Position numbers and translations under genes: made by a program. Below are positions 9,675-59,737 of a stretch of DNA of 64,000 bases, one piece after another. Source of the stretch: Granulicella mallensis MP5ACTX8 (GTDB lineage: Bacteria > Acidobacteriota > Terriglobia > Terriglobales > Acidobacteriaceae); contig NC_016631.1 of assembly GCF_000178955.2 (NCBI RefSeq), forward strand, positions 186,001-250,000. Direction: 5' to 3'. The notes beneath the pieces were generated by a model. It saw only the letters and a list, made by a program, of their open reading frames with translations, had not been told where the DNA came from and made no database searches. The stretch's first letter is position 1. Each line of letters opens with the position of its first letter.

Positions 9675-12533
9675 ATGTCTCCCGTGGCCTCTTTCAGGAC
9701 TCTTCTCGGCACTTTTGCACTGTCTGGTCTTCTAATTTTCGCGGGATGCTCCGGGCATCCGTACCAAGCGTCTGTTCGACCGGCGGTGGCCGGAATCAGC
9801 GGGCAGGTTCACGGGGGACAGCAGCCGGTCGTGGGTGCGACGATCCAGCTCTATACGGTTGGGACAAGCGGTGTCGGCTCTGCCTCTACCCCCCTGCTTA
9901 CTCAGACTGTAACCACGGACGCCGGCGGAAACTTCAGTATTGCAAATCTCTTCTCCTGCACCGATGCGACGCTGGTCTATATCACCGCCACCGGCGGCAA
10001 TCCGGGCGTGTCGAGCAATAATCCGAATATTGCTCTCATGACGGCCCTTGGACCCTGTTCTTCTCTCGGCAGCAATATCCAGTTTATTTCTATCAACGAA
10101 CTGACGACCGTGGCGGCTGTCGCGGCTCTGGCGCCGTTTATGCAGTCACCGACGGCTATCGGCTCGGGAGCGCTCAATGTCTCCACCCTTACCGCAGCGT
10201 TTACGCTGGCCGCGCAGCTTGTCGATCCATCGCAAGGCATGTCTCCCGGGCTAAATATTCCTGCGGGACAGCTCGCGCCCGTGAACGAAATTAATACTCT
10301 TGGGAATATCATTGCGAGCTGCGTGAATTCGGTGGGAGGAGCCGCGGGAGACTCTTCGTCGTGTGGGCAGCTCTTCTTGCTTACGACTCCTCCGGGCGGT
10401 ACGCCACCGACAGACACGATCGCGGCATTACAGGTCCTTGCGCTCAATCCCGCGCTGAATACCTCGCAACTGTTCGTCCTTTCGACCTCGTCCGGGCCGT
10501 TTCAGCCGCAGCTTACCGTCGCTCCGTCGAACTTCCGTATCCAGCTCGTCCCCGCCGGTCTTACGGTCCTGCAGATAAGCCCTTCGTCTCTCTCGTTTCC
10601 GACGACAGCGGTTGGATTTCCTGCGACTGCTCTTCCGATCATGATCCGGAACAGTGGATCGACTTCGGTTGCCATCAGTTCCATCGCGATCACAGGCGCC
10701 AACGCAGCGGATTTTGCACAGACGAACAATTGTGTTTCGAGCCTTTTTCCTTCAGGGACCTGCACCGTGCAGGTAACCGCAACCCCATCGGCAACCGGCA
10801 CGCGCAACGCCTCCCTTGTGATTACGTCGAACAGTCCCGACTCTCCCCAATTTGCTGCGCTTTCCGTTGTGGGCGAAGCTCCAGGCGCCGGACCGGTGAC
10901 GATCAGTCCCACGACCCTTAGTTACACCCTTGGCGGCACGGTCCAGGATGTCACCTTGTCGAATCTTGGCTCCACGCCGCTCGCGATCAAGAGCATTACC
11001 GAGACAGACACCAACTCGCCGCCAAGGCCTGCTTTCTCCATCGTCGGCAATAACTGTGGCACCAGCCTACCTGCGCAATCGGTCTGCACGATTTCAGTAG
11101 CCTCTCTTCTGACGCAGCTTAATAGCACTGAGCAGCCATTCGTATATACCGGTACGCTTACCGTGGTGGACGATGCGGAAACCGGGCCGCAGACGGCTGC
11201 GCTTACCTCTGCCAATACGGGCCTCTTCCAGGGAACTACCGTGAATGGCGTCGTTTCTTTTCCGGCAAACCAGAACGGTTATCAGCAGACGGTAACGGGC
11301 GTCCTTTACGAGTCGCCCAGTTACTACACCACCGCCCCACCTGTCTCATTGGCCCTGGCAGGACAGGACCCGGGCGATTTCTCGGACACCGTGGCGCAGG
11401 TCGGTCCCTCTGAACCGGGCTGCAATCCCTCGATAAGTGGAAACCCGTGCCTTCTTTTCACGTTCAATTTCACACCCACGGCAGCAGGGATACGGACGGC
11501 AAAGGCCATCATCAATCAAGGGAACCAGTATTTGCTGTTGACCGGTACAGGCGTCGGTCCGGGGCCTTCGTTTACCCTCGGATCGCCCTCGATCTCCCTG
11601 AGCAGCGCCTTGCCCAGCGCTCCTGATCCTCACGGCAATGATTCGGCATCGGTTCCGCTGACTATCACCAATACGGGAACGACTACCTTCAGCTTTTCGG
11701 CAAGCTTTTCCGGGGCCAATGCTTCCTTGATGACCGTCAGCGCCGGGAACTGCACCTCTGTAGCTCCCCAGGCTTCCTGCACCGCGACCGTCGGATTCAA
11801 CTCGGCCACCGTGGGAACATTCACAGCATCGCTGACCGTAAAAGATGCGAACTCCACCTTCTCCCGCAGCATTCCCATCACGGCTAATGCGTCGTATTGG
11901 CCGGTGGCCGTCTCTCCGAGTTTTCTGCAGTTTGATCTGCAGGCTTTAAATACGACCAGTGCCGCGAAGACGTTCACGCTGGGCGATCTGAACGGCTATC
12001 CTCTGGGGCACGCACTCACTGTTGCCCTGGCCTCTCCCAGCAACTTTGTCCTGACACAGGGCTCCACCTGCCCGGCAAGCCTGACGCAGGCCTGCACCCT
12101 GGCTGTCGCCTTCAGTCCTATCCAGGCAGGCAATATCTCTGAGTTTGCACTCATTACCGATCAGGTGAGCGGGTACACGACCAAACTGCAGCTTATCGGG
12201 AGCGCGGGTTCTTCGGCAGTCTCCCTCTCTAGTTCCTTCCTTCAGTTTCCTTTGAGAGCGACTGGAACAACCTCCATCCCGATGAGCGTTATCGTGACCA
12301 ATACAGGAGTGGCTAATCTGATCATCAGCAGTATCGGTCTTCAGGGCGCGATCAATGGCAATTTCACCCAGACCAACAACTGTACAGCCGCGACGATCCC
12401 CGTCAATGGGACTTGCACGATCAACGTAACCTTCGCACCCACGGCAACGGGTATGCAAACGGGGCAAATCAACATATTGAGTAACACTCTCAGCGGTATG
12501 GACTTCATTGCGCTGTCAGGCACCGCTAACTAG
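9675..12533 (+). CDS. Large lipoprotein with choice-of-anchor-D (ASPM-SPD-2-hydin-like) repeats
   Basis: A 952-residue exported protein. The N-terminus is a lipoprotein signal peptide ending in the lipobox LIFAGC (Cys about residue 25). A transthyretin/carboxypeptidase-like beta domain follows (about 40-110; ISGQVHGGQQPVVGATIQLY and then DAGGNFSIANL). The rest contains several Ig-like ASH/hydin repeats of ~100 residues, each recognisable by ISP..LSF...VG, V.I.N.G and CT..V.F.PTA.G segments (for example near 300, 405, 650, 755 and 865). It is rich in Ser, Thr and Asn. Such proteins are numerous in Terriglobia and are thought to be surface or adhesive; the exact function is unknown. The stop codon lies within an inverted repeat (12530-12646). 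Confidence 0.8.
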   Translation: MSPVASFRTLLGTFALSGLLIFAGCSGHPYQASVRPAVAGISGQVHGGQQPVVGATIQLYTVGTSGVGSASTPLLTQTVTTDAGGNFSIANLFSCTDATLVYITATGGNPGVSSNNPNIALMTALGPCSSLGSNIQFISINELTTVAAVAALAPFMQSPTAIGSGALNVSTLTAAFTLAAQLVDPSQGMSPGLNIPAGQLAPVNEINTLGNIIASCVNSVGGAAGDSSSCGQLFLLTTPPGGTPPTDTIAALQVLALNPALNTSQLFVLSTSSGPFQPQLTVAPSNFRIQLVPAGLTVLQISPSSLSFPTTAVGFPATALPIMIRNSGSTSVAISSIAITGANAADFAQTNNCVSSLFPSGTCTVQVTATPSATGTRNASLVITSNSPDSPQFAALSVVGEAPGAGPVTISPTTLSYTLGGTVQDVTLSNLGSTPLAIKSITETDTNSPPRPAFSIVGNNCGTSLPAQSVCTISVASLLTQLNSTEQPFVYTGTLTVVDDAETGPQTAALTSANTGLFQGTTVNGVVSFPANQNGYQQTVTGVLYESPSYYTTAPPVSLALAGQDPGDFSDTVAQVGPSEPGCNPSISGNPCLLFTFNFTPTAAGIRTAKAIINQGNQYLLLTGTGVGPGPSFTLGSPSISLSSALPSAPDPHGNDSASVPLTITNTGTTTFSFSASFSGANASLMTVSAGNCTSVAPQASCTATVGFNSATVGTFTASLTVKDANSTFSRSIPITANASYWPVAVSPSFLQFDLQALNTTSAAKTFTLGDLNGYPLGHALTVALASPSNFVLTQGSTCPASLTQACTLAVAFSPIQAGNISEFALITDQVSGYTTKLQLIGSAGSSAVSLSSSFLQFPLRATGTTSIPMSVIVTNTGVANLIISSIGLQGAINGNFTQTNNCTAATIPVNGTCTINVTFAPTATGMQTGQINILSNTLSGMDFIALSGTAN

Positions 12534-53207: not shown

Positions 53208-56200
53208 TTAGAACGTCGTTGCGACGGTAAAGCGGAAGGTCTTACGTGGCTCTCGCAGTACGTAATCCGCACCGTAGAGTTGCAGGGCTTGCTGGTAGGT
53301 GAACTGACCCGCACCCAGATTGGTGGGGAAGAGTTGCTGGAACTGCTGCGGCGTTACAGCCAACTGCTGTGGCAGGTTTCTGTAGAGACGTAGCGGGTTG
53401 TAAGCGTAGTAAATGCGGAACGGTGCGTTGACGATCGGCAGGATGACCTGCAGCTCGGCGCCGTTCGACATACGCGGGACGATGTTTGTATGGGGCACCG
53501 TGGCCAGGTCGAGCGGGAAGGTCACCTTCTGTCCGCCGAAGCAGGCACCGTTGATGACCTCAGGGCAGCCATAGAGCGGCGTGTTGAGGATCGATTGGCC
53601 GAGCACGCTCTGGCGTAGCTGCGACTTCTCCGTATCGAACGTCAGGCCGAAGTCGGTGAAGACAGCAAACGTCACCTGGTTGACGATCGGGATACGATAC
53701 TCGACGTTCGACGTAAGGCTGGTATCGCCGCCGATGGGAGCCAGACGATAGATAGGCAGGGGGATCTGCACGTTGCCCAGTGTGGCGTTGGTCGGGTCGC
53801 GCGGAACCAGCGTGCCGTCGGGGTTAGTGAGGTTGAACAATACCCGCGTCGGGATGAAGGTATACGGTGAGCTCGAACGGATGTCGAAGCCGCGTACTTC
53901 GTTCTCGCCGCCGCCATAGATACGGTTGAAGGGTGGTGCAACCTGACCGCCGAAGCCGGCGACGTTGGAGAGCTGGATGCGATAGCCCAGGACGTTGTGT
54001 CCTTCACGATCCATCCTTAGGCCCTTCATCGGGAAGAACTGGCGGTAGGTTGCGGTTGGCGCGTAGTACTTGGTGTTTCCACCAACACCTGCTACCTCGA
54101 ACGCAATGTTGAAGTCCTTGCCGTGGTGCGGTCCCTGTGCCCGGTCCAGCGTCGAGAAGCTGAAGCTGGGAGTGATCTTGGAGGTGATGATGCCGGTCAG
54201 TTGGCTCGATCCTGCGATACCGGAACGGAATGCCAGCGATTGGAAGACGTTGCGCGTCGTATCGCTGAAGGTCGTAATGCCTGAACGCGACAGGGAGTAG
54301 GTGACACCGACCCTGGCCACGCCCGAACGACGGAACAGCTTGCGCAACGGCGTGCCCGTTGAGATGGTAAAGCCGGTCGAGGACTGGTTGTAGTTGCTCG
54401 ATAGCGACTGTTGCTGGTTCGCCTGATTCGATCCTGCCACGGTGCCGGTAAGAGAGGCGGCCTTGGCTGGGTTGAAGTCGGACTTGCTGCTGAACACCTG
54501 CATACCCAGCGAAATCGGCTTGTTGCGCAGATAGGGCTCATTGAAGCCCAGGCTCAGGGTGCGCGACAGATCGCCGATGTTAGCGGTTACGTTCAGGGTC
54601 TCGCCCAGTCCGAGGAAGTTGTTGGTCTCGTAATTGAGGCCGATGAAGGAGCCGGAAAGACCGCTGAGTCCGCCGTTCAGGCCGATGGAGTTCTTGCCCT
54701 TCTCCTTCAGCTTCAACAGCAGGTCGACCGTGCCGGCGTCAGCGTTCTGGCGTGTCTCCACGTCCTGCTCAGCCTTCAGCGTGTCGAAGTAGTTGAGCTG
54801 GTTCAAGCGCAGCAGCGAGAGATCGACGAGACGGCTGTTGTAGACCTGGCCCTCTTCGATGAGGATCTCGCGGCGGATGACCTTATCGCGGGTGATGGTG
54901 TTGCCCGAGAACTCGATGCGCGAGACGTAGAACTTCTTGCCTTCGTCGATATCGACATCGAGATAGACGAGCTTTTTGGCTTCATCGACACGCGGGGTCG
55001 GCGTGCCGACCATGTTGATGAAGCCGCCCTCGCCATAGGCCTTGCGCAATGCTTCAATGCCCTTGCCGAAGAGCGTGGCGTTGAAGTACTCGCCGTCCTT
55101 CTGCGCGAACTGCGCACGCAGGGCCTTCTTGTTGGTGTATTCCTTGTTGCCGGTAAAGGTGATGCCGCCCAAACGATAGCGAGCACCTTCTTCGACGGGG
55201 ATCAGGATGTCGACGCGCTTGCCGGTAGAAGGACGCAGCGTGAAGGGATTGATACCGCCGGCATTGCGGACGTTGGTCTGCGGCTCACCGGTCAGTGCTT
55301 TGAAGTAACCCTTGTCGCGATAGGCTCCGCGCACGCGCTCTGCATCTTCGTCCAGCTTGCTGGCGTCGAAGGTGCGAGGCAGAAGATCTTCGAGGAAGAT
55401 CGAGTGCGGAATGCCGATGGGCTTCAGGTTCTTCATCGAGGCGCGGAGTTCACGCGCGTTGAGTTGCTGATTTCCCTGGAAGACGATCTTGCCCACCTTT
55501 ACGGTAGGGCCTTCCTTGATATTGAAGGTCAGCGCAACGGCTGCTGGAGGAATCGTCTTGATCTCGGTCTTGATGACCGCGAACTGATGTCCGTGTTCGC
55601 CGAGCATCTCCTGCAGGACGACTTCCGCACGCTTGACGCGCGTTTCATCGAACTGGCTCTCGACGGTGAGACCGACTTTTTCTTTCTTCCAGCGGTCGTA
55701 CACATCGGAGATGGTAACGGCGTTCAGGCCCTTGAAGTTCATCTCGCGAATGGTGGGCTTTTCGCGCACGTACACGATGAGCTGAACGCAGTTTGCCTCA
55801 TTGACGCGCTCGATGCGCACATCGTCGAAGTAGCTGGTGTTCCAGAGCGAATTGAAATCGCGTTCGACCACGACGGGATCGAAGGGATCTCCAGGCCGCG
55901 AGAACAACCGCGCCAGGATGGACTCCTTGGGGATGCGGCGGTTACCGATGACCTGCGTCTGGCACAGGATCTGCGGGCCTGCTTGCGCTCCGCTGAACTG
56001 CGGCTGGGCCTGCACCTGCGCTCGAAGTGCGGGTGTGAGAGCTGGAATCAAGGCCATCGTCGCCAACGCTGTAAGCGCGGTGACTGGAATGCGAATGCGG
56101 CTCGAGCGCGCGCGCACAGGCTGGGACGTACTGATCAGAGAGCTTCCGCTCACTCGCGTTCCGGTAAAGATAACCACACCCTCACTGCTCTTTGAATCTC

Positions 56201-56222
56201 TCAAAGCTTTTTTGAATACCAA
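53208..56222 (-). CDS. bamA: Outer membrane protein assembly factor BamA
   Basis: A protein of up to 1004 residues. After a signal peptide (about 45-72, with ALTPALRAQ) come about five POTRA domains (to ~475). Recognisable POTRA text: IPKESILARLFSRPGDPFD, VGKIVFQGNQQLNARELRA and FYVSRIEFSGNTITRDKVIRRE. The C-terminal barrel (~500-1004) has YGGGENEVRGFDIRSSSP, matching the conserved barrel region, and ends in FRFTVATTF, a beta-signal with terminal Phe. It inserts outer-membrane proteins. The first codon at 56222 is TTG; GTGs at 56177 and 56153 are alternatives. It is longer than the ~800 residues of E. coli BamA, mostly through barrel loops. Confidence 0.93.
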   Translation of the reverse strand: MVFKKALRDSKSSEGVVIFTGTRVSGSSLISTSQPVRARSSRIRIPVTALTALATMALIPALTPALRAQVQAQPQFSGAQAGPQILCQTQVIGNRRIPKESILARLFSRPGDPFDPVVVERDFNSLWNTSYFDDVRIERVNEANCVQLIVYVREKPTIREMNFKGLNAVTISDVYDRWKKEKVGLTVESQFDETRVKRAEVVLQEMLGEHGHQFAVIKTEIKTIPPAAVALTFNIKEGPTVKVGKIVFQGNQQLNARELRASMKNLKPIGIPHSIFLEDLLPRTFDASKLDEDAERVRGAYRDKGYFKALTGEPQTNVRNAGGINPFTLRPSTGKRVDILIPVEEGARYRLGGITFTGNKEYTNKKALRAQFAQKDGEYFNATLFGKGIEALRKAYGEGGFINMVGTPTPRVDEAKKLVYLDVDIDEGKKFYVSRIEFSGNTITRDKVIRREILIEEGQVYNSRLVDLSLLRLNQLNYFDTLKAEQDVETRQNADAGTVDLLLKLKEKGKNSIGLNGGLSGLSGSFIGLNYETNNFLGLGETLNVTANIGDLSRTLSLGFNEPYLRNKPISLGMQVFSSKSDFNPAKAASLTGTVAGSNQANQQQSLSSNYNQSSTGFTISTGTPLRKLFRRSGVARVGVTYSLSRSGITTFSDTTRNVFQSLAFRSGIAGSSQLTGIITSKITPSFSFSTLDRAQGPHHGKDFNIAFEVAGVGGNTKYYAPTATYRQFFPMKGLRMDREGHNVLGYRIQLSNVAGFGGQVAPPFNRIYGGGENEVRGFDIRSSSPYTFIPTRVLFNLTNPDGTLVPRDPTNATLGNVQIPLPIYRLAPIGGDTSLTSNVEYRIPIVNQVTFAVFTDFGLTFDTEKSQLRQSVLGQSILNTPLYGCPEVINGACFGGQKVTFPLDLATVPHTNIVPRMSNGAELQVILPIVNAPFRIYYAYNPLRLYRNLPQQLAVTPQQFQQLFPTNLGAGQFTYQQALQLYGADYVLREPRKTFRFTVATTF

Positions 56223-56916: not shown

Positions 56917-58545
56917 CTAGCGTCTGCTGTAGGGAACAGTCAGGCCGACAAGATCCGCGCTCTTCAGGAACTCCTGCAGTCCGGCCGCCAGCTTGGGTTC
57001 GATTGAGCTCACGGGGGAGCTTGTATCGGAGGTTTCGATCTTCAGCAGCACGGGGACGGGGCGCGTCGCGTCGGCCTGGAGCGGTAGTCCGCGGTGCGGC
57101 TTGGCGTACACCAGGGTTACATGCTGGCTGGTCTGCGAATACTGCCTGCAGGCCCCGCCATCGCATACGGTGGAGGCCTCCAGCTTTTGCGTCAGGCCGT
57201 CGTTATAGGTCGCGGCGGTTAGGTCGACCGGTCCCTGCGTAGATGGCGATTCGATCTGTCCGTGCCAGGTTGGGTTCTCGCCCCGGGCGATGTGGCAGAC
57301 CTCGGCATCGTGCACGCCCAGCTCCGGAGAGATCCCAAGAGAGACATGCGTCCCGGCAACTCCGGGGGCATCTCCCGGCGCCTCGTACTCGCCCCACACG
57401 TAGACTACGGTTCCGTCGACCAAACCCTCAGCCCAGGAGCGTACTAGCGAGAAGTTGCCGATGTGCTGGGGCATGGGAGGAGGTGTGGCCGCGGACTTCA
57501 CGGCCATCGCGTCGACGCGGGCGGTGTGCATCGCCTCAAGGCCGAAGACCGTCGACAGGATCAGGATGGCCACCACCTTTGCGAGGTAGGGCACTGCCAC
57601 CGGGCCGCGTGACGGCTTCTCTTCCGGCGGCGCAGCGTTCACATCTTCCGGCGTGCGGCGCAGCTTCTCAATGGTGGTGAAGAACAGGAACGCCGCCAGC
57701 AGAAACAGGCAGGCGCCTACGATGTGATCGGCCAACTGTTCATGGGCCTGCAGTGCAGGAAAGGAGACCGCGATCCGGTCATAGACCACTAGGCTGCACA
57801 AGCGCAGCAGGTTGAAGACGTATCCCAGCAGGACCGCACCGAGCACCAGGGGAGCGAACACGAACCAGCGAAAGCGGTAGACATAGCCAACGACGATCGC
57901 CGTGAGTCCCAGGGTGATCGATCCGCGCAGACCGTCGCATCCGGGGGCGATGAACATCCCAAACCTGGGAGCGAACAGGATATTGAGGTCCACGGTGCTG
58001 AGCTTTGCGCCAATGAGCTGGGCAAAACCGCGTGCGACAGAGGCCCCGGCATGCTGAAGCGGGAGATCGACAAAATGGCTGAAGGTCTGGGGGACAGGGA
58101 TAACGGCCCACATCAAAAGGATGGGGAACCAGGCGGCACGCAGAAGGCGCTTTCCACCGAAGAGCAATACCATGCCGGTCGCATAAACCACTGCTACCAG
58201 TGGAAGCGGTGGCAGTTGCAGCAGCCAGTCTTTGTTAACAGTTACGATCAGGAGCATCTGATCGCGAAGAAACATGAGGATGGAGGAGGTTGCCAGAACT
58301 GCGAAACCCCACCAGGAGCCTTCGGTCTCCCACCCAATGGATCGCCAGGCCCTCAAAATAAGGGCGAAGCAAATGATGGGAACGACCATTCCTATCGATT
58401 TAAGGGCGTCGGTTCGCCAGATCTCAAGCAGGGCCTGTACGGAACCGTAGATACTTAATAGGCCTACCGCCGCGCACACTGAGGCGTACGCGACGGCGAC
58501 TTGCGGCCTGAATCGCTCTGGAAAGATGCTCGACAAAGAAGACAC
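56917..58545 (-). CDS. xrtJ: Exosortase J-type protein with fused EpsI-like domain
   Basis: A 542-residue membrane protein. Residues ~15-300 form the exosortase/archaeosortase core with about eight helices and the intramembrane triad: Cys203 in APGCDGLRG, Arg248 in VFNLLRLC and His274 in LADHIVGA. The C-terminal ~215 residues after a further helix (about 325-345) form a periplasmic EpsI/DUF3485-like domain (QHIGNFSLVRSWAEGLVDG ... VCHIARGENPTW). Such fused exosortases in Acidobacteriota are the J type, to my recollection. They recognise C-terminal tripartite sorting signals. The likely target is encoded directly upstream (58577-58777) on the same strand, 31 nt away. The start is GTG 58545. 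Confidence 0.85.
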   Translation of the reverse strand: MSSLSSIFPERFRPQVAVAYASVCAAVGLLSIYGSVQALLEIWRTDALKSIGMVVPIICFALILRAWRSIGWETEGSWWGFAVLATSSILMFLRDQMLLIVTVNKDWLLQLPPLPLVAVVYATGMVLLFGGKRLLRAAWFPILLMWAVIPVPQTFSHFVDLPLQHAGASVARGFAQLIGAKLSTVDLNILFAPRFGMFIAPGCDGLRGSITLGLTAIVVGYVYRFRWFVFAPLVLGAVLLGYVFNLLRLCSLVVYDRIAVSFPALQAHEQLADHIVGACLFLLAAFLFFTTIEKLRRTPEDVNAAPPEEKPSRGPVAVPYLAKVVAILILSTVFGLEAMHTARVDAMAVKSAATPPPMPQHIGNFSLVRSWAEGLVDGTVVYVWGEYEAPGDAPGVAGTHVSLGISPELGVHDAEVCHIARGENPTWHGQIESPSTQGPVDLTAATYNDGLTQKLEASTVCDGGACRQYSQTSQHVTLVYAKPHRGLPLQADATRPVPVLLKIETSDTSSPVSSIEPKLAAGLQEFLKSADLVGLTVPYSRR

Positions 58546-58576
58546 CAGCAGCCATCAAGCTGCAACTCACCAGATT

Positions 58577-58777
58577 TTACTTTTGATCTGACTTGCGGCG
58601 GGCGCGAAGACGCGTCCTGAGTGCGGATACGGCGTACGCGCCACCGGAGAGGCCTGCCAGAATCAGGGTAGGATTCTCTGGTGTGTCCGTGCAGCCGGTC
58701 AGCACGGATTGTGCATGCATTGGCATAGCTGCCATGAAGGCGAGGGCAAGGGTCGCGAACAGAAAGGTCTTCTTCAT
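58577..58777 (-). CDS. PExPT-CTERM small sorted protein, probable exosortase J substrate
   Basis: A 66-residue protein. Signal peptide 1-22 (MKKTFLFATLALAFM... then MHA). Only about 10 residues follow (QSVLTGCTDT) before the sorting signal: P33-E-N-P-T37, a hydrophobic helix (38-53; LILAGLSGGAYAVSAL) and a basic tail (RTRLRARRK). This is the tripartite organisation of PEP-CTERM-like proteins with the variant PExPT. It is the first gene of a two-gene unit with xrtJ, with AGGGA ~10 nt before the ATG. I recall the name PExPT-CTERM protein from acidobacterial annotations. A single Cys (29) is the only reactive residue in the passenger. Confidence 0.85.
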   Translation of the reverse strand: MKKTFLFATLALAFMAAMPMHAQSVLTGCTDTPENPTLILAGLSGGAYAVSALRTRLRARRKSDQK

Positions 58778-59152
58778 AAGTAGTATGTCCCTATTCGTTG
58801 TTGGATGCGTTCAAGTCTAAAGATGCCGTCGGCTTTCCGTTTGGATGCTTCTGAAGCTAAAACCTTCGGGATGAACCGCGCAGAACATCGTGTCCTTTAC
58901 GTTCTTAGACACATCATCAACAACAAAGTTCTGAGCAGTTGTCTTATCGTATCGAGTGGCTGGTGCTAAGTCAATCGGAAAGCGATTCACTACAAAGATA
59001 CTGCTGGTTTTGCAGGGGCAGCTTTCCAACTGTTCCGACGCTTTGATCTTAGCCTATAACCCGTAAAGATCCAGGGTTTTCGCCGTTTTTTCACATCAAA
59101 CCGTCAACGTCTGTAAAATCAGGCGTTGTATTCAATGGAGGACAGCAACACA
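58778..59152. promoter_or_regulatory. Divergent upstream region of the xrtJ unit and frr
   Basis: This 375-bp stretch must carry the promoters of the leftward xrtJ unit and the rightward frr gene. A purine-rich GGAGG at 59137-59141 is the ribosome-binding site for frr. A frame at 58817-59029 (reverse) encodes 70 residues with no recognisable pattern and I do not call it. AT content is visibly higher around 58900-58990 than in nearby genes. I see no clear -35/-10 pair that I would defend. Confidence 0.35.
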
Positions 59153-59737
59153 ATGGCATCGGCAATGGCGAGCATAGTCGCACTGAAGGGCGTGTACGAG
59201 GAGTTGAAGTCGCGCATGGACAAGACTGCGGAAGACTTCCGCGCCAACCTGTTGAGTGTCCGTACGGGCCGGGCTTCCGTTCATATGCTCGATAACGTCA
59301 AGGTTGACTACTATGGTACGGAGACTGCGATTGCGCAGGTTGCGCAGGTCACCACGCCTGAGGCCAACCTGATCGTCGTCCAGCCATGGGAGCAATCCCT
59401 GGTACAGGCGATCGAAAAGGCCATCCGCACCAGCAGTCAGGGATTCAATCCCATGCACGACGGCAAGATCATCCGTGTGCCCATTCCGCCGATGACCGAG
59501 GAGCGCCGCCGCGAGGGGATCAAACAGCTCGCCGGGGTGCTCGAAGATCACAAGACCTCCATCCGCAATATCCGTCGCGATGGCAATGAGACGGTGAAGA
59601 AGGCCGCCAAGGACAAGCTGATCTCGGCTGACGACGAAAAGCGCGCCAATGAAGAGATTCAGCAGCTTACGGACTCTCAGATCAAGCGCGTTGAGGATCT
59701 CTTCAAAGCGAAGGAAAAAGAAGTGATGACGCTGTAG
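59153..59737 (+). CDS. frr: Ribosome recycling factor
   Basis: A 194-residue RRF. Typical segments are DFRANLLSVRTGRASVHML, VDYYGTETAIAQVAQV, IIRVPIPPMTEERRREG and RNIRRDGNETVKKAAKDK. It splits post-termination ribosomes with EF-G. ATG 59153 is preceded by GGAGG 11 nt upstream; ATGs at 59126 and 59135 in the same frame would place that Shine-Dalgarno inside the gene. No pyrH or tsf gene is adjacent in this window. The stop is followed by a perfect 31-bp hairpin. Confidence 0.95.
   Translation: MASAMASIVALKGVYEELKSRMDKTAEDFRANLLSVRTGRASVHMLDNVKVDYYGTETAIAQVAQVTTPEANLIVVQPWEQSLVQAIEKAIRTSSQGFNPMHDGKIIRVPIPPMTEERRREGIKQLAGVLEDHKTSIRNIRRDGNETVKKAAKDKLISADDEKRANEEIQQLTDSQIKRVEDLFKAKEKEVMTL

Follow-up and report, generated by a model that had tools for sequence, protein, structure and literature searches.

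Exosortase J and its cargo-less PExPT-CTERM substrate in Granulicella mallensis, and a lipoprotein-like family that recurs beside them in related loci

INTRODUCTION

Exosortases were discovered through comparative genomics, and the roles of their processed products are mostly open. Among the closest described systems, the archaeal exosortase-like enzyme archaeosortase A processes PGF-CTERM proteins of Haloferax, for which cleavage and attachment of a C-terminal lipid have been shown (PMC7157517). Its tag is tripartite, like that of PExPT-CTERM, but it ends proteins such as the S-layer glycoprotein, whereas the PExPT-CTERM tag ends almost nothing. The MYXO-CTERM tag, whose Cys was examined for its part in cleavage and is presumed to carry a lipid (PMC11980579), shares with the PExPT substrate an invariant Cys in the motif that precedes a helix and an Arg-rich tail. 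The motifs themselves differ (GCGC in MYXO-CTERM versus GCxDSPExPT), myxosortase is an unrelated protease of the CPBP type, and MYXO-CTERM tags dozens of proteins per genome. In cyanobacteria, ScyE and ScyF are described as PEP-CTERM proteins (PMC12188702). The tag of ScyD, ScyE, and ScyF sits on the protein itself, whereas in the loci of exosortase J (XrtJ) propeller and tag are separate genes, and the XrtJ-linked propeller proteins mostly carry a lipobox. Last, the XrtF system of Flavobacterium johnsoniae resembles XrtJ in being a variant exosortase with an adjacent associated protein and no known targets; deletion of either gene impairs colonization and biofilm formation (PMC10936215). XrtF belongs to a different exosortase family from XrtJ.

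Here we analyze an XrtJ locus of the soil bacterium Granulicella mallensis MP5ACTX8, within a stretch of 64,000 nucleotides (the window), and compare it with the loci of its relatives.

RESULTS AND DISCUSSION

Identity and layout of the gene pair

Both open reading frames lie where the initial annotation placed them, with a spacing of 31 nt (Table 1). The larger one matches TIGR04199 with 909 bits (cutoff, 200) over model positions 2 to 522 of 522, as well as PF09721 with 124.7 bits in the Pfam scan. The 66-aa protein matches TIGR04200 ("targ_of_XrtJ," PExPT-CTERM) with 87.3 bits (cutoff, 40) over positions 1 to 57 of 57, with zero Pfam matches over the cutoff. As both proteins are far above the curated family cutoffs, the pair is not due to chance, and as the two models are curated as partners by name, the pairing was already known. 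In its identity this pair is typical of its known family: the two genes are adjacent, both exceed the curated cutoffs, and the pair itself shows no difference from the known type. The nature of the substrate is less ordinary. Among the literature matches listed, we found neither a description of XrtJ/PExPT function nor one of the recurring module neighbor and the several copies per genome reported below, and the main text of a Granulicella trace-element proteome paper (PMC7315648) gave no match to the terms looked for. Two aspects look new, the cargo-less substrate and the recurring module-gene neighbor.

Table 1. Features of the XrtJ locus and related genes in the window (positions of the window)
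Feature	Coordinates	Strand	Basis
Exosortase J (XrtJ), 542 aa, membrane enzyme	56917..58545	-	TIGR04199 and PF09721 matches
XrtJ exosortase core, residues ~1-309 (boundary approximate)	57619..58545	-	PF09721 at 27-292; helical in AF2 model
XrtJ C-terminal domain, mostly beta, residues ~310-542	56917..57618	-	Part of TIGR04199; strands in AF2 model
PExPT-CTERM substrate, 66 aa, cargo-less	58577..58777	-	TIGR04200
Predicted 15-residue stretch, from likely signal-peptidase site (MHA/Q) to end of PENPT	58667..58711	-	Sequence; homologue layout similar
Motif G-C-T-D-T-P-E-N-P-T in substrate	58667..58696	-	Conservation among homologues
Hydrophobic helix and Arg/Lys-rich tail of substrate	58580..58666	-	Sequence; tail-only profile
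BamA/Omp85-like gene, conserved downstream flank of window-type locus	53208..56222	-	14/61 loci; named by sequence features
Divergent gene like frr (ribosome recycling factor), conserved flank	59126..59737	+	Same 14 loci as BamA flank
Candidate partner family member, lipoprotein-like, 952 aa	9675..12533	+	Module profile E 1.6e-75; NF012200 165.6 bits, 5 stretches

The locus follows the order frr / substrate-XrtJ-BamA, with only the substrate and XrtJ between the divergent gene, presumably frr, and the BamA-like gene. This window type was found in 14 of the 61 compared loci, at 13 distinct places, and the 13 distinct XrtJ sequences form one group with 100/100 support in a midpoint-rooted XrtJ tree. 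That no exopolysaccharide genes lie near the pair holds for the genes within about 5 kb.

A sorting tag without cargo

The signal peptide, T-P-E-N-P-T, hydrophobic helix, and Arg/Lys tail described at first for the 66-aa protein are all visible by eye, and the substrate profile detects no second substrate in the window at E 1e-9, in line with the remark that no other protein there has such a tail. We compared 49 distinct stop-to-stop frames, some of them nearly alike. Their common layout is a signal peptide, a few residues, G-C-x-[D/N]-[S/T]-P-E-x-P-[T/S], a helix, and a basic tail, the exceptions being L063, whose tail is lost at a contig end, and L079, whose signal peptide is unclear. No cargo domain was seen in any of the 49 sequences. 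The Cys is present in 48 of 49, the preceding Gly in 44 of 49, and D or N before S/T-P-E likewise in 44 of 49; the P, E, and P of the motif are invariant in 22 diverse rows.

Little sequence separates the two predicted processing sites. By a crude AxA rule, which finds no site in 11 of the 49 substrates, the distance from AxA to S/T-P-E is most commonly 6 residues (17/49) and otherwise 4 to 18. Position -3 relative to the Cys holds Q in 29 of 49 sequences and I, L, or V in 13 of 49, and an AxA-type site often precedes; the consensus of the lipobox recognized by LspA is [LVI][ASTVI][GAS]C right after the h-region. After both predicted cuts about 10 to 15 residues would remain, and the predicted 15-residue stretch of the window protein would be nearly all of the substrate left outside the membrane.

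To look for cargo-bearing proteins with the same tail, we ran a tail-only profile against 24 genomes; none was found among the candidates scored (the best 150 of 152 to 189 in 5 of the 24 genomes). The 40 matches at E <= 1e-10 are all short, 66 to 241 aa from stop to stop, and the longest of these frames seem to extend upstream of the likely start. Four weak rows at E 0.03 to 0.09, covering profile positions 15-37, 15-34, 15-35, and 6-36 in frames of 65 to 137 aa, were left uncounted.

The enzyme

The XrtJ alignment comprises 42 distinct sequences of at least 290 aa each (that of L112 is a non-XrtJ exosortase), including three short rows without the C-terminal domain (L063, L064, and L114). 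From the catalytic set first proposed, Cys203, Arg248, and His274, the first two occur in 42 of 42 rows, but His274 is not a family residue: the position holds Y in 37 rows, H in 4, among them the window protein, and L in 1, next to an Asp273 that is invariant (42/42). Exosortases in general have a His as the third catalytic residue. As H274, though present in the window protein, is not a family feature, the mismatch does not count against membership in TIGR04199.

The C-terminal part was initially read as an EpsI-like domain. An additional domain is indeed there, giving 331.6 bits to TIGR04199 by itself, but its likeness to EpsI is unproven: DUF3485 (PF11984), which we take to be the EpsI-type Pfam family, did not match the window protein; of three stretches tried, just one matched, and weakly (E 0.07). 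The AF2 model (mean pLDDT 72) combines a helical core with a strand-containing C-terminal domain, which is predicted to be periplasmic. Sequence relatives of XrtJ in the PDB were absent at E <= 1. The best match of the C-terminal fold was SciW, an Eag chaperone, at E 0.081, with none at E <= 0.001. SciW was solved with a transmembrane domain bound, and a likeness to it, only a lead drawn from the model, would suit a C-terminal domain that grips the substrate helix. In one genome (G419, L134:9343-9966), only the C-terminal part of XrtJ was matched (profile positions 365-522), and the exosortase core was absent.

Copies in the genome and in relatives

A search of the whole genome (6.24 Mb, single contig) detected three full-length XrtJ genes, at 242929-244482, 2973644-2975215, and 5897805-5899373, and three TIGR04200 proteins over the cutoff, one beside the first XrtJ, one beside the second, and a third at 5286324, about 0.6 Mb from the nearest XrtJ. 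The tail-only profile returned the same three substrates, and classical PEP-CTERM (PF07589) had zero matches over the cutoff (best E, 0.016). An adjacent substrate was looked for at the third XrtJ and none was found. The system had been pictured as one enzyme with one substrate, a picture that could be checked by looking for further tails in the genome. Many PEP-CTERM proteins were not found, yet there are three substrates rather than exactly one, and one of them is not adjacent to an enzyme. The absence of PF07589 together with the three tail matches supports a narrow substrate range: the idea of a small substrate set stands, and the one-to-one idea fails. As a separate observation, the third XrtJ (L020:4757-10461) adjoins a gene for a 1299-aa outer membrane beta-barrel protein, the cluster of which recurs in L054, L055, L113, L119, and L120.

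For the family we drew 200 genomes, in which the substrate was scored on the best 30 candidates, at most, per genome. XrtJ exceeds its cutoff in 14 of them and the substrate in 17; by this scoring the substrate is present in 14 of 14 XrtJ-positive genomes versus 3 of the 186 others. One substrate-positive genome (G326) has an XrtJ match under the cutoff (174 bits), the gene lying in two frames near a contig end, and another (G373) has no XrtJ at E <= 1e-30. The substrate of G304 adjoins a non-XrtJ exosortase, whose best models, XrtA and XrtW, both score under their cutoffs; this PENPT protein (L112:9027-10128) is the sole substrate without a Cys. A wider draw of 297 genomes from the phylum, with at most the best 21 candidates scored per genome, gave substrates over the cutoff in 13.

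Positive family genomes hold 1 to 5 substrates over the cutoff among the best 30 candidates, and a single XrtJ over the cutoff can be accompanied by up to 5 substrates (G456) or by 2 or 3 (G112, G147, and G356). The expectation that the substrate always sits beside XrtJ did not survive the comparison, as 14 of 37 substrate rows other than the window type have no XrtJ in the stretch compared. Universal adjacency is ruled out by such stretches in the genome of the window (G000) and in G112, G130, G147, G202, G356, G373, G418, and G456. A different arrangement is seen on one MAG contig (L057:2445-9572), where two divergent XrtJ genes point away from each other and the interval holds one substrate gene and two further genes.

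A module protein family recurs beside the substrate

Most of the remaining loci with an exosortase have, next to the substrate or XrtJ, a gene that encodes a protein of about 640 aa. These neighbors mostly have a lipobox, judged by eye, and NHL/SMP-30 propeller matches in those scanned, and they share a conserved N-terminal module of 290 positions, of an HGGQQPI type. The module alignment has 29 rows from 42 cluster members, with 8 of the 42 (fragments, other propellers, and outliers) and identical copies left out. Two stretches of the module gave nothing over the cutoff in Pfam, and a CarboxypepD_reg match that overlaps the module of the window protein is under the cutoff (E 0.003). In five proteins compared with NCBIfam, no best-scoring stretch falls inside the module. 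Against the PDB, the module profile reached only E >= 0.05, with catechol dioxygenases, and an AF2 prediction of one module protein without an alignment had a pLDDT of 39. ScyE/ScyF models match the propellers of 2 of 5 module family proteins scanned, below the cutoff. An odd number of conserved Cys residues, such as a disulfide with the substrate would involve, was looked for in the module proteins and not seen; beyond the lipobox Cys there are four, each of them kept in at least 28 of the 29 rows.

Neighbors were counted in 50 substrate rows (13 of the window type and 37 others), six duplicates being left out. With the module profile, a module gene was found within 2 kb of the substrate in 26 of the 37 other rows, or 25 of 36 if L063 and L165, two contigs of one MAG, are, as is probable, two ends of one substrate gene. 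The module gene is present in 20 of 23 rows with an exosortase in the locus and in 6 of 14 rows without one, and the 26 linked rows include gammaproteobacterial and deltaproteobacterial MAGs (L063/L165 and L064). Near the window-type substrates the count is 0 of 13 within the stretches compared. The closest module gene in the window is the one at 9675..12533, and its distance of about 46 kb from the pair makes it a family member only, not an operon partner. Its N-terminal module is followed by five choice-of-anchor D/HYDIN Ig-like stretches, without an NHL propeller; the module is the part in common with the XrtJ-linked proteins, and the remainder is swapped.

Module copy numbers in the 200 family genomes are lower bounds, at most the best 12 candidates having been scored per genome. 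On this scoring, 15 of 17 substrate-positive genomes have the module, versus 18 of 183 substrate-negative ones (Fisher p ~8e-12, uncorrected for phylogeny). The genome of the window has at least about 20 genes of the family, and in a family this large chance should account for some of the module neighbors. A full-length search of G094 retrieved a single relative, the gene beside XrtJ, and the module profile retrieved three. One region of the G. mallensis genome (G000:C1:5134865-5149586) is dense in NHL lipoprotein matches, with about seven genes in 15 kb by match positions.

What the pair may produce

We favor, with a rough probability of 45%, the reading that XrtJ yields a surface-bound Cys mini-peptide that acts with module proteins or with exopolysaccharide. 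Signal peptidase I would remove the signal peptide at AxA/Q, and Cys203, helped by Arg248, would attack near PExPT and free the helix and basic tail. The remaining peptide of about 10 to 15 residues would end near PENPT and, if archaeosortase A is a guide, would probably become linked to a lipid or to some other nucleophile of the envelope. Its conserved Cys, whether free, disulfide bonded, or acylated, may be the functional group, by analogy with MYXO-CTERM. The mini-peptide would then act in trans. Its partners would be distinct surface proteins, mainly of the kind that has the HGGQQPI-type module and mostly a lipobox and an NHL propeller, and in the SPECPT class of substrates the peptide may act with exopolysaccharide. 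The window locus could have arisen in the Granulicella type by relocation from an older gene set with a module protein, in which case the partner proteins of this genome would be encoded away from the window pair. A surface role is suggested by analogy with XrtF (PMC10936215) and CrtB (PMC12188702). With Cys and PExPT kept both within Acidobacteriota and by MAGs that are classified in two further phyla, such a tag-only substrate is about the simplest test case for an exosortase, since the cleavage site and any attached group of a 10- to 15-residue product could be read directly by mass spectrometry. The module link, if real, would give a role to a large and so far unnamed family of Acidobacteriota surface proteins.

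A bolder reading is a split exosortase system, in which a free-standing tag gene is processed to the surface-bound Cys mini-peptide and the cargo is a separate, expanded set of lipoproteins, recognized by their N-terminal module and joined in trans. Propellers of the cyanobacterial ScyE/ScyF type that are tagged directly would be expected if fused and split forms both exist; still, we regard the split system as distinctly unlikely. Against any partnership with the module proteins, the stretches compared contain no module gene in 8 of the 14 rows that have no XrtJ close by and in 3 of the 23 remaining rows, and, among at most the best 12 candidates per genome, the module occurs in 18 of 183 substrate-negative genomes and is absent from 2 of 17 positive ones. 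Loci from a single genus have, in many cases, a common ancestry.

A plainer account is an ordinary dedicated exosortase that processes one small surface protein with a role of its own, the neighbors being incidental. The curated pairing by name fits it, dedicated systems that have one adjacent target are described in PMC3237569, and at window-type loci the pair stands alone between frr and BamA with a module gene near 0 of 13 rows. It sits less well with genomes that pair a single XrtJ with as many as 5 substrates, with the three enzyme copies here, and with a module neighbor that returns in 20 of the 23 other rows linked to an exosortase, among them MAGs from two further phyla, and we consider it possible but somewhat unlikely. 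The small protein might instead occupy or stabilize XrtJ, as a regulatory or dummy substrate, while other proteins are the real substrates, much as XrtF of F. johnsoniae has a co-encoded associated protein and no known targets (PMC10936215). This is improbable given that no other matching tail occurs among the candidates scored in 24 genomes, that conservation lies in the motif itself, and that several genomes keep substrate copies distant from XrtJ. Improbable, too, in our view is a released signal, a short pheromone-like Cys peptide with an N-terminal Gln cut free by signal peptidase I and XrtJ. The size of the product, the near-constant motif, and the near lack of sequence between the two predicted processing sites would agree with it, but no receptor or kinase was recognized among the subset of recurrent neighbor clusters that was annotated. 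Exosortase products are described as surface attached or released (PMC12188702), so release is possible but not favored.

SPECPT substrates and polysaccharide genes

The side of the preferred reading that involves exopolysaccharide comes from loci outside the window. The initial annotation saw no exopolysaccharide genes nearby; the SPECPT class of lone substrates speaks against the lack of such a link, as it adjoins a polysaccharide export gene (SLBB/Poly_export) in two congeners (G130 and G418). Next after the export gene comes a Wzz-type gene in G130; in G418 the gene in that place belongs to the same cluster. In G. mallensis itself the SPECPT substrate adjoins a nucleotidyltransferase (PF00483) gene, which we take to be RmlA-like, and its other scanned neighbors are not polysaccharide genes. 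A divergent XrtJ in L062 lies downstream of sugar-transferase, GHMP kinase, and nucleotidyltransferase genes, and L059 carries genes of the same clusters as these polysaccharide-type neighbors. The neighbors of other lone substrates (G147, G202, and G112) are mixed.
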